Both the position numbers and the translations under genes were made by a program. From the NCBI RefSeq assembly GCF_002019705.1, contig NZ_KV917377.1:1796565-1860564 (forward strand): a stretch of 64,000 bases of DNA. The letters are read 5' to 3'. Shown here piece by piece: positions 45,344 through 47,130 of the stretch. Under the pieces are notes generated by a model. It had not been told where the DNA came from and did no database searches. It worked only from the letters and a program-made list of their open reading frames with translations. The DNA is from Shouchella patagoniensis (lineage in GTDB: Bacteria; Bacillota; Bacilli; Bacillales; Bacillaceae_D). Every line of letters starts with the position of its first letter. Position 1 is the first letter of the stretch.

Positions 45344-45372
45344 TTGACATTAGAGTCTATGGGCTGTAAAGT
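45344..45372 (+). promoter_or_regulatory. Promoter of the mgtE leader
   Basis: TTGACA (45344-45349), a 17-base spacer and TAAAGT (45367-45372) preceded by TG. Transcription would begin near 45379, about 17 bases before the riboswitch. Confidence 0.65.
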
Positions 45373-45395
45373 GAAGTTTGCAAGAAATTCATAAG

Positions 45396-45550
45396 TCCTC
45401 GTTAGGTGAGGCTCCTGTGCTGGAGATACGCTGCTACCCAAAAATGTCCAAAGACGCCAATGGGTCAACAGAAACCATCGACATAAGGTGGTTTTTAATG
45501 TAGCTGGACTAGTCCTATGCCGCACAGTGCTAAAGCTCTACGAATGGAGG
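45396..45550 (+). ncRNA. M-box (ykoK) magnesium riboswitch
   Basis: The conserved core is unmistakable: GTTAGGTGAGGCTCCTGTGC, GGAGATACGCTGCTACCCAA, GACGCCAATGGGTCAACAG, ATCGACATAAGGTGG and GTGCTAAAGCTCTACGA. The 5' strand TCCTC (45396-45400) can pair with GAGGA (45547-45551). The overlapping GGAGG (45546-45550) can instead pair with CCTCC (45596-45600) of the terminator arm. That gives an anti-terminator at low Mg2+ and termination at high Mg2+. Confidence 0.96.
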
Positions 45551-45590
45551 AAAACACGCCTATATTAAGGTATTTCTTAAACATGCGTTC

Positions 45591-45618
45591 AAACACCTCC
45601 GATGGATAAGGTGTTTTT
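45591..45618 (+). terminator. M-box-controlled terminator
   Basis: AAACACCT (45591-45598) pairs with AGGTGTTT (45609-45616), followed by a T-rich tail. The left arm overlaps the CCTCC used by the anti-terminator. Confidence 0.82.
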
Positions 45619-45647
45619 ATTTTGGCTAAAAAAGGTGGTGGTGTGGG

Positions 45648-45743
45648 ATGGATAGTTTACCCAATCCAAGGATAGGCTTAAAAATAATGAGGTATCAACA
45701 GGAAGGGGCTCGTCCCGCACCAGCGGAATGGTACCCTCTCTAA
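45648..45743 (+). CDS. Candidate 31-residue proline-rich leader peptide of mgtE
   Basis: Downstream of the riboswitch terminator, AAGGTGGTGGTGTGGG is followed by an ATG at 45648 and an uninterrupted 31-codon frame. It begins MDSLPNPRIGLK and ends RPAPAEWYPL, with five Pro codons and acidic residues. Its last codons and TAA stop lie in the left arm and loop of the hairpin that covers the mgtE ribosome site. A ribosome reaching the end would open that hairpin. No homologue is known to me; the arrangement resembles in principle the Pro-rich MgtL leader of Salmonella mgtA. Confidence 0.5.
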   Translation: MDSLPNPRIGLKIMRYQQEGARPAPAEWYPL

Positions 45744-45756
45744 AAGAAAAGAGGGT
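45733..45756 (+). promoter_or_regulatory. Hairpin sequestering the mgtE ribosome site
   Basis: ACCCTCT (45733-45739) pairs with AGAGGGT (45750-45756). The right arm contains the AAGAGGG ribosome site of mgtE, 6 bases before its ATG. The leader ORF stop (45741-45743) is in the loop. Confidence 0.65.
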
Positions 45757-45762
45757 TAGAAT

Positions 45763-47130
45763 ATGGATAAATTAAAAACAGACCGTAAACGAAATGAATA
45801 TAAAAACGAAATCATTAAACACCTTGTTTCACGAAACCTCCGGGCTTTTCGTGAAACATTTCTGGAACTGCACCCAACAGACCAGGTCGAATTATTTCAT
45901 GAGATTGAAATTGCTCTACAAAAACAAGTTCTATTATTTCTAAGTCCACAAGAGTTTGCTGACCTTTTTGAAGGACTTGAACTTGATGACCAATTAATTG
46001 TCTTTCAAGGACTAAGCTATCAATATGCAGTGTCCATGTTTAACAATATGTCTGCCGATGATGTTGCTGATTTTCTTGCAGAAATTGACCCAGAGCGTTC
46101 CAAAGATATTCTTAGCTCTATGGATATGGAAGAAGCAAAACGCGTAGAAGAATTAATGGCATATGCACCAAAAACTGCAGGTGCCATTATGACAAAAGAG
46201 TTTGTTCGACTTTCTGTTGAATCAACTGCAAAAGAAGTCATTGCGGAACTACGCGAGACAGCTCCTGATGCAGAGACTATTTACTATTTATATGTTATCG
46301 ATAAAGATCAGAAACTTGCAGGCGTTGTTTCTTTACGTGATCTCATTATTGCAAATCCCGAAATGACTGTAAATGATATCATGAGCACCCAAGTCGTTTC
46401 AGTTAATGAAGAAGAAGATCAGGAAGATGTCGCTCGTTTAATTAAAGAGTACGATTTTCTTGCCGTACCAGTCGTTACACCAGACAAACGCCTAATGGGT
46501 ATTATTACCGTCGATGATGTGATCGACGTTTTGGAAGAAGAAGCAACAGAAGACTTTGGTGAGTTCACCGCTTCTCGTGGGGCAACCGATCTTTCTTTGA
46601 CCGCTTATACAGCTGCAAAAAAACGTGCCCCTTGGTTAATTTTACTCATGTTTTTTGGACTTATTACAGCAAACATTATTGGACAATTTGAGAATACGTT
46701 AGAACAAGTTGTTTTACTTGCTGCTTTTATGCCCCTTATTATGGGAACAGCTGGAAATACCGGTACTCAATCATTAGCAGTCGCTGTACGAGGTATTGCA
46801 ACTGGTTCATTTGAGCGCGGTGGTGTGTGGAAAACCGTAAAGCGTGAATTTGGAACTGGAGTTATGCTCGGAATCGTCTGTATGATCGTATTAATGGGGA
46901 TTATTAGCTTATTTTATAATGGAGATTTCATCCTTGCATTTATCGTTGGTTTCTCCCTCTTTTGTGCACTTAGTGTTGCTGCTGTAATTGGTGCAACCAT
47001 TCCTGTTGCGATAAACAAACTTAAAATTGACCCAGCAGTCGCCTCTGGTCCATTCATTACCACATTAAATGATATCATTAGTTTAATGATTTATTTCTCG
47101 ATCGCGACAACTTTAATTGACCGTCTTTAA
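45763..47130 (+). CDS. mgtE: Magnesium channel/transporter MgtE
   Basis: 455 residues. An N-terminal helical domain (about 1-130, with DDVADFLAEIDPERSKDIL), two CBS domains (about 135-260, VSLRDLI and VDDVIDVLEEE) and a C-terminal five-span membrane domain with LITANIIGQFE and GNTGTQSLAVAVRGIA, the pore signature. The cytoplasmic domains sense Mg2+ and gate the channel. Expression is controlled by the M-box and perhaps also by a leader ORF. A perfect 18-bp terminator follows. Confidence 0.96.
   Translation: MDKLKTDRKRNEYKNEIIKHLVSRNLRAFRETFLELHPTDQVELFHEIEIALQKQVLLFLSPQEFADLFEGLELDDQLIVFQGLSYQYAVSMFNNMSADDVADFLAEIDPERSKDILSSMDMEEAKRVEELMAYAPKTAGAIMTKEFVRLSVESTAKEVIAELRETAPDAETIYYLYVIDKDQKLAGVVSLRDLIIANPEMTVNDIMSTQVVSVNEEEDQEDVARLIKEYDFLAVPVVTPDKRLMGIITVDDVIDVLEEEATEDFGEFTASRGATDLSLTAYTAAKKRAPWLILLMFFGLITANIIGQFENTLEQVVLLAAFMPLIMGTAGNTGTQSLAVAVRGIATGSFERGGVWKTVKREFGTGVMLGIVCMIVLMGIISLFYNGDFILAFIVGFSLFCALSVAAVIGATIPVAINKLKIDPAVASGPFITTLNDIISLMIYFSIATTLIDRL

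Follow-up and report, generated by a model that had tools for sequence, protein, structure and literature searches.

A leader open reading frame with an acidic and proline-containing start between the M-box and mgtE in Bacilli, and a proposed second, ribosome-based attenuator of magnesium transport

The control of mgtE transcription by Mg2+ through the M-box riboswitch is known for Bacillus subtilis. In a window of 64,000 nucleotides of Shouchella patagoniensis DNA, and in M-box leaders from many other Bacilli, the stretch between the M-box and mgtE contains a short open reading frame (ORF) that begins with acidic, proline and serine codons and is accompanied by four RNA regions (R1 to R4) able to pair in alternative ways. 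The ORF, the constraint on its codons 2 to 9, the pairings and the preference of the arms for their own partners are computed here. With a little better than an even chance of being correct, we propose that ORF and regions form a four-region attenuator behind the M-box, in which early failure of the ribosome on the leader ORF opens mgtE at low Mg2+.

The local architecture is given in Table 1. The order M-box, terminator and 31-codon ORF had been read from the letters in the initial annotation and is confirmed, with the limits of the M-box refined by the Rfam match, whose covariance-model score of 137.1 bits against a gathering score of 44 places the element in RF00380. The terminator stem is known from folding, and was not among the sites from a simple terminator scan. 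By eye, CACCT in its left arm (45594-45598) is complementary over 5 bp to AGGTG (45633-45637) in the ribosome-binding site of the ORF, so the terminator and ORF layers might compete for AGGTG. The leader ORF encodes the 31-residue peptide MDSLPNPRIGLKIMRYQQEGARPAPAEWYPL, with Asp2, Pro5 and Pro7 and a single acidic residue within its first nine. The product of mgtE has Pfam matches above cut-off to PF03448, PF00571 and PF01769, and the nearest named relative among the matches is Bacillus sp. JCM 19041 (98% in MgtE).

Table 1. Features of the mgtE leader, in coordinates of the window
Feature	Position	Strand	Evidence
Promoter-like site 5' of the M-box, 10/12 matches	45344-45372	+	consensus scan only; 2 sites in the region vs 1.8 expected by chance
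M-box (ykoK leader) Mg2+ aptamer	45391-45556	+	Rfam RF00380, 137.1 bits, E 4.9e-32, full length 1-169
M-box terminator hairpin, then T-rich DNA	45591-45616	+	fold of 45585-45625, -8.3 kcal/mol
Leader-ORF ribosome-binding site AAGGTGGTGG	45632-45641	+	sequence; near-invariant within the genus
R1 core TGGTGTGGGATG (part of ORF ribosome site and start codon)	45639-45650	+	pairs with R2, duplex fold
Leader ORF, ATG start, 31 codons, MDSLPNPRIGL...	45648-45743	+	ORF list; conserved acid/Pro/Ser part is codons 2-9
R2 core CGTCCCGCACCA (distal leader ORF)	45711-45722	+	partner is R1 or R3
R3 ACCCTCT (left arm of the hairpin on the mgtE ribosome site; final ORF codons)	45733-45739	+	fold of 45725-45762, -9.1 kcal/mol
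R4 AGAGGGT (right arm, carries the mgtE ribosome-binding site)	45750-45756	+	fold
mgtE, Mg2+ transporter	45763-47130	+	ORF list; Pfam MgtE_N, two CBS, MgtE

Folding also bears out the 7-bp hairpin that had been suggested to mask the mgtE ribosome-binding site: its right arm is that site and its loop contains the stop codon TAA of the leader ORF (45741-45743). The duplex of R1 and R2 (-26.9 kcal/mol with flanks), overlooked in the initial annotation, is stronger than this hairpin and is present in the minimum-energy fold of 45560-45790 as well, a region that folds better than its shuffles (z -2.1; equalled by 6 of 200).

Within the genus, the start motif of the ORF occurs exactly once, with at most two mismatches, in each of 13 genomes, in one of which (G004) an M-box match is absent. 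The reading frame, whose loss in relatives had been named in the initial annotation as the observation that would speak against the ORF, is kept. In 10 of 11 distinct genus leaders (the M-box–mgtE leaders of the window gene's own type) the ORF stop lies, by eye, inside the arm and loop region of the mgtE hairpin, and in the remaining one (L013) it lies 3 nt 5' of it. The genome with L013 (G007) has two M-box–mgtE loci, L013 with an MDSLPNQR ORF and L007 with an MDSSPEPDS ORF. In Shouchella lonarensis (L018, 1720-2000) the ORF, a terminator-like hairpin and mgtE are kept, and L101 of G004 has the same MgtE identity; a search of 700 nt gave no M-box for L018 and L101 at E ≤ 10, and blastn gave matches to it of chance length only.

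Beyond the genus, 12 of 122 listed M-box places were left out of the first set (4 of the genus that were already included, 4 near-duplicates by score and 4 others), and 107 of 139 distinct gaps had mgtE at a usable distance. At a score of at least 6, an ORF with an acidic, proline and serine start is present in 86 of these 107 distinct leaders, against 3.9 in dinucleotide shuffles; at a score of at least 8 the figures are 54 and 0.2. By label (a tally that omits 13 leaders from named contigs) the ORF at a score of at least 6 is present in 24 of 32 genera and 12 of 15 families, and in 8 of the 32 sampled genera with an M-box–mgtE leader no such ORF was found at that score. The more distant peptides include MDSSPEPDS, MDSYPEPEP, MDPSPSPDS, MDSSPSPRTK, MDSDSDSR and MDSPHSSQSEE, among others.

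The score was devised after inspection of the list of distinct M-box–mgtE gaps and was therefore tried on leaders from further orders of the class. In the first of two held-out runs, 5 of 15 leaders with a recognised mgtE reach a score of at least 6 (0.4 expected) and 3 a score of at least 7 (0.2 expected). A second run took M-box leaders of any gene, with the same score, a fixed start range, no stop limit and a threshold of 7 instead of 6; its sample joined 29 new loci to 60 hand-chosen places, one or a few per genus, among the class matches listed. Five of these 89 leaders were lost because the M-box core pattern was unmatched, and 65 of the remaining 84 are nonredundant; 22 of the 65 carry the ORF at a score of at least 7 (0.98 expected). 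By gene, it is found before MgtE in 2 of 14, Nramp-type transporters in 8 of 14, P-type ATPases in 3 of 9, CorA in 2 of 8, PRC-MgtE_N in 2 of 6, ABC permeases in 2 of 4 and unclassified genes in 3 of 8 leaders, and in neither of two further leaders (MgtC, 0/1; no gene call, 0/1). In real flanking DNA, 8 of 708 windows score at least 7 and none scores 8 or above. Shuffles, flanking DNA and held-out genomes all speak against a chance ORF, which is rejected: the leader ORF is not due to chance, and the feature is not peculiar to Shouchella.

As to the peptide, 89 leaders had a score of at least 5 and 88 of them entered the R1-pairing test; removal of 5 with no refined start and of 4 with 200 nt or more between the two starts left 80 for the switch test described below, of which 49 are nonredundant. 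In these 49 mgtE leaders, residue 2 is Asp or Glu in 47, residue 3 is Ser or Pro in 37, and a proline occurs somewhere in residues 3 to 8 in 42. Acidic residues, proline and serine make up 25, 18 and 22% of codons 2 to 9 against 9, 2 and 7% of codons 10 to 17, and together 65% of codons 2 to 9 when these are read in the ORF frame; the two alternative frames give 15 and 27%. The codons themselves vary (GAT 31 and GAC 14 for Asp2; CCC 16, CCT 6, CCA 4 and CCG 3 for Pro5), third positions of the conserved codons being slightly more variable than the others (0.65 vs 0.56 and 0.54). Given the enrichment in codons 2 to 9 and the varied codons, it is the start of the peptide that is constrained and not the remainder; the constraint is restricted to codons 2 to 9. 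The initial annotation had placed ribosome stalling at the C-terminal proline run RPAPAEWYP. This run is not conserved, even among genus leaders, and is therefore unlikely as the stalling part; as a stalling site it was rejected.

The same figures bear on three other explanations of the ORF. It is improbable that the device consists of RNA only, with the ORF a by-product, R1 a ribosome landing site or decoy and the peptide irrelevant: this would suit the strength of R1:R2 and R2:R3 (see below) and the start-region nucleotides, nearly unchanged across the genus, but would not account for an in-frame enrichment written in varied codons, nor for start codons that vary (ATG 39, GTG 5, TTG 5); codons 4 to 9, moreover, are outside the R1 window used in the pairing tests. 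Slightly less improbable, and still unlikely, is a sensor of proline, charged tRNA-Pro or EF-P instead of Mg2+, to which the frequent early proline would point, as would Salmonella mgtP, described in the parts of PMC8092293 that deal with it as responding to charged tRNA-Pro; against it, several leaders have no proline at these positions (MDSDSDSR, MDSDSSSS), Asp2 is nearly universal and a Pro-Pro motif is not conserved. Finally, a small protein acting in trans could be the product of ORFs that have ribosome sites and 21 to 51 residues in the mgtE leaders, but past codon 9 neither sequence nor composition is conserved and the distal part of the ORF serves RNA pairing, which makes this reading very improbable indeed.

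The pairings are found well beyond the window. Over 88 leaders, the pairing of R1 with the rest of the ORF beats shuffles with a mean z of -2.95, and 84% pass p ≤ 0.05. Among the 49 nonredundant leaders, with 2.5 expected in each case, R1:R2 passes this level in 39, R2:R3 in 32 and R3:R4 in 13, the support for the last being modest. When arms are swapped between leaders with different R3, the own arms pair better than the mean of the swaps in 47 of 49 for R1:R2, in 42 for R2:R3 and in 34 for R3:R4. The arms vary by clade with the pairing retained, for instance GGTGTGG:CCACACC, GGTGCGG:CCGCACC and GGTGGTAACGAAAATG with a U-rich partner, and R1:R2 is seen again in the held-out leaders (mean z -3.26; 17 of 22). 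The Mid:R4 duplex, used as a gauge of the mgtE hairpin, is uninformative (mean z -0.74), probably because the mgtE ribosome site pairs with R2 as well. In two leaders (L176 and L178) with the ORF MRPRMKSVDDEDRY, the acidic run comes later in the peptide and R1:R2 is strong (z -3.35 and -3.06).

The consequences of these pairings for mgtE were modelled with an assumed footprint size and thermodynamic folding that ignores kinetics. Placing a ribosome footprint over the start of the ORF makes the mgtE ribosome site more open in the model, from 0.336 to 0.502 over 80 leaders, 42 of which rise by more than 0.1 and 4 of which fall; with a shuffled middle as control, openness falls, and 6.3 up and 20.7 down are expected. 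Among the nonredundant 49, the site goes up in 23 and down in 4, and a control footprint between R1 and R2 moves one leader each way; openness is above the shuffled value in 39 of 49 (p 5e-7). By ribosome position, openness is 0.49 (codon 3), 0.45 (codon 5), 0.37 (codon 7) and 0.33 (codon 9), so that at codons 7 to 9 it is back near the level with no ribosome. The codons at which the ribosome holds R1 therefore overlap the conserved acidic ones.

It had been suggested in the initial annotation that a ribosome finishing the ORF melts the hairpin and lets mgtE be translated, and that early stalling keeps it shut. As a group, the mgtE relatives behave in the opposite way in the early-stalling case; the part that stands is that the window's own fold opens the mgtE site with the ribosome at codons 28 to 31, and the parts overlooked are R2:R3 and the opening by a footprint at the start. 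Such plain translational coupling, in which the finishing ribosome melts R3:R4 and mgtE is re-initiated, is rather unlikely as the explanation. It draws on the place of the ORF stop, which is in the hairpin loop in the window and, for 35 of 49 leaders, falls between -12 and +2 nt from the mgtE ribosome site, and on the window, where openness of that site is highest, 0.61-0.84, at codons 28 to 31 (with the footprint trimmed to leave the site uncovered) against 0.17-0.22 at codons 1 to 25. It leaves unexplained, however, both the preference of R2 and R3 for their cognate partners and the opening by a start-bound ribosome; a terminating ribosome would itself cover the mgtE site, and the conserved residues are at the start of the peptide, not at its end.

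In the window, a footprint on R1 leaves the openness of the mgtE site at 0.20 (0.20 without it). The R2:R3 pairing is weak there (-13.0 kcal/mol, z -1.0) and competes only with the mRNA 5' of 45682-45700 (codons 12 to 18) removed, being the best local fold once everything 5' of about 45682 is absent; under that condition the mgtE site opens only from 0.03 to 0.17-0.31. When the last 63 nt are folded in isolation, the best structure is R2:R3 for the window and for 6 others of the 11 genus leaders; in two genus leaders (L003 and L004) the R1 footprint gives no opening of the mgtE site. On the modelled folds, the weak R2:R3 step may be replaced by plain coupling in the window's own sequence, and MDSLPNPR, with one acidic residue, is presumably a weaker destabiliser of the ribosome than MDSSPEPDS.

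For the mgtE leaders as a group, the four-region attenuator would work as follows. The M-box terminator would let transcription pass into mgtE only at low Mg2+, and the read-through mRNA would then meet a second, translational attenuator based on the leader ORF. With no ribosome on the ORF, R1 would pair with R2 and R3 with R4, so that the mgtE ribosome site is masked. A ribosome that initiates and then fails on the acidic, proline and serine codons 2 to 9 would keep R1 occupied, R2 would be freed for R3, and R4 would be exposed and mgtE translated. Translation of the full ORF would instead disrupt R2:R3 and bring the ribosome to a stop at the R3/R4 loop, beside or over the mgtE site, and on its departure R1:R2 and R3:R4 would re-form. 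By analogy with the enterobacterial MgtL, early failure would be expected more often at low Mg2+; riboswitch and ribosome would thus act in series, each opening mgtE at low Mg2+. We infer the translation of the ORF, the early drop-off in these bacteria, its control by Mg2+ and the direction of that control.

For other genes the outcome differs. Applied to 17 held-out leaders, most of which precede other genes (the other 5 of the 22 with an ORF had no usable downstream start or one too distant), the switch test yields 3 up and 8 down (p 0.15 vs shuffles); support for the RNA logic is therefore limited to the first-set mgtE leaders, and an attenuator logic general to all genes is not supported. 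Six Nramp-type leaders (L227, L228, L232, L235, L237 and L238) have MDSPSSSR or MDSPASSR ORFs of 56 to 59 codons. In the three measured (L227, L232 and L237) the ORF extends past the apparent transporter start, and, among the held-out leaders, the predicted ORF overruns the automatically assigned start of the following gene in 7 of 8 Nramp-type and both unclassified cases; another output, occlusion, is therefore possible, in which a full read of the ORF might block the gene. In four CorA leaders behind M-boxes (L223, L226, L260 and L253) another kind of ORF recurs, MGIILTDDPAIG or MENILTDDP, whose acidic DDP motif comes a few residues after the start. Among upstream regions of mgtE that have no M-box, mostly from other phyla, 13 of 59 reach a score of at least 7 (1.77 expected), and regions with such acidic, proline and serine starts include L051, L073, L076, L092, L093, L057 and L039; the 13 contain L018 and three groups of near-duplicates, and the result is therefore a lead only.

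Several known systems share parts of this layout. In erm-type attenuators, a ribosome on the leader ORF frees region 2 for region 3 and a ribosome site is exposed; those systems differ in their drug-induced stalling, in serving resistance genes and in having no riboswitch. For the MgtL leader peptide of enterobacterial mgtA, Chadani 2017 and Gall 2016 are cited in PMC11282234 and PMC11552253. According to the passages on MgtL in PMC11282234, ribosomes are lost very early, on EPDP, at low Mg2+, and a toeprint with Pro3 in the P site is obtained with EttA present. The likeness to MgtL pointed out in the initial annotation is apt, an acidic and proline-containing start (EPDP against MDSxPxPDS here) ahead of a Mg2+ transporter gene being common to both (PMC11282234 and PMC11552253, in their sections on the leader). 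MgtL, as described in those sections, acts on Rho-dependent transcription termination, whereas here the predicted output is translation initiation, 3' of a separate riboswitch. The peptides are very short, and the likeness is best taken as convergence.

The layout is closest to that of mgtQ-mgtB in Salmonella, for which, in the portions of PMC8092293 on mgtQ, mutations show that early acidic codons favour mgtB translation, by way of the 2:3 pairing in the authors' model. Both have a short ORF with early acidic codons and four regions that pair as 1:2 and 3:4, for which 2:3 would be the alternative in the leaders studied here, with region 1 within the ORF and region 4 as the ribosome site of the Mg2+ transporter gene, and in both early ribosome failure would open translation (PMC8092293). 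An early acidic and proline-containing ORF 5' of a Mg2+ transporter gene is found in the window and its relatives, as is the arrangement of 1:2 with 3:4 in which region 4 serves the following gene as its ribosome site. The differences are that mgtQ has 8 codons against 21 to 51 here and sits between mgtC and mgtB in a PhoP-controlled operon, for which the same portions of PMC8092293 mention no M-box, and that the ORF of Bacillota usually ends at the R3/R4 loop, has its own start codon in region 1 and lies 3' of an M-box. The likeness would be one of layout alone, and a sequence relation is not claimed.

Among M-box systems, B. subtilis mgtE (ykoK) has the same aptamer class, terminator and gene, and its leader is described as transcriptional, with no leader ORF mentioned in the relevant sections of PMC12288461, PMC8844918 and PMC11567004. 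In mycobacteria, as set out in the parts of PMC12810186 and PMC4974804 on this locus, the M-box is followed by a conserved uORF in which one proline is near-invariant, and a ribosome-protected uORF is found at the mgtE M-box of Mycobacterium abscessus. In these reports the M-box acts, together with Rho, on the translation of the uORF itself, the peptide is described as peculiar to mycobacteria, and those parts describe no acidic and proline-containing four-region attenuator (PMC12810186, PMC4974804). Mycobacterial M-box uORFs (PMC12810186, PMC4974804) and enterobacterial acidic and proline-containing Mg2+ leader peptides are thus already known, judging by the portions of the literature cited. 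In the open-access papers searched, among the matches listed, no report was found of a leader ORF that lies 3' of the M-box and 5' of mgtE in Bacillus, which does not prove that none exists. What is apparently new, and proposed here, is a leader-peptide attenuator that is placed on top of a riboswitch, is widespread in Bacilli and would have arisen by convergence.

As regards B. subtilis itself, genomes of the groups f43 and g49 have an M-box up to 98.7% identical to an approximate query sequence which we take to be that of B. subtilis, and the ORF is present in every one of their 10 mgtE leaders in the set, for example MDSPHSSQSEEVPIYYDS... in L120 and MDHPDSRHIENMSK... in L132. By sequence comparison, therefore, the leader ORF is very probably present in B. 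subtilis, the species on which the definition of the M-box is based. The ribosomal protein L22 lines the exit tunnel. In the sections of PMC11567004 on mgtE, a B. subtilis ribosome with an L22 duplication raised expression from the full-length mgtE 5'UTR-yfp fusion and the amount of MgtE protein, and the M3 control was made in the wild-type background. Because that control concerns the wild-type background only, as far as those sections go, the leader peptide may, as a speculation, bear directly on the L22 result (PMC11567004).

Taken more broadly, and tentatively, since we hold this wider reading to be slightly less than evenly probable, Bacilli would have a portable ribosome-based Mg2+ sensor, an MDSxPxPDS-like ORF with its start codon locked by pairing, behind the M-boxes of unrelated transporters (MgtE, CorA, Nramp-type and P-type ATPase), which would form an AND gate of aptamer and ribosome stability, would be independent of the enterobacterial MgtL and MgtQ and would probably be present in the mgtE leader of B. 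subtilis. The mgtE M-box of Bacillus is a textbook metal riboswitch and is read as transcriptional. If a conserved second layer is indeed present, reporters of the Bacillus mgtE leader would need another interpretation, and one mRNA may sense Mg2+ twice, first by the RNA itself and then by the ribosome that translates it; this would suggest that ribosome-based sensing of Mg2+ evolved independently in Gram-positive bacteria and in enterobacteria.
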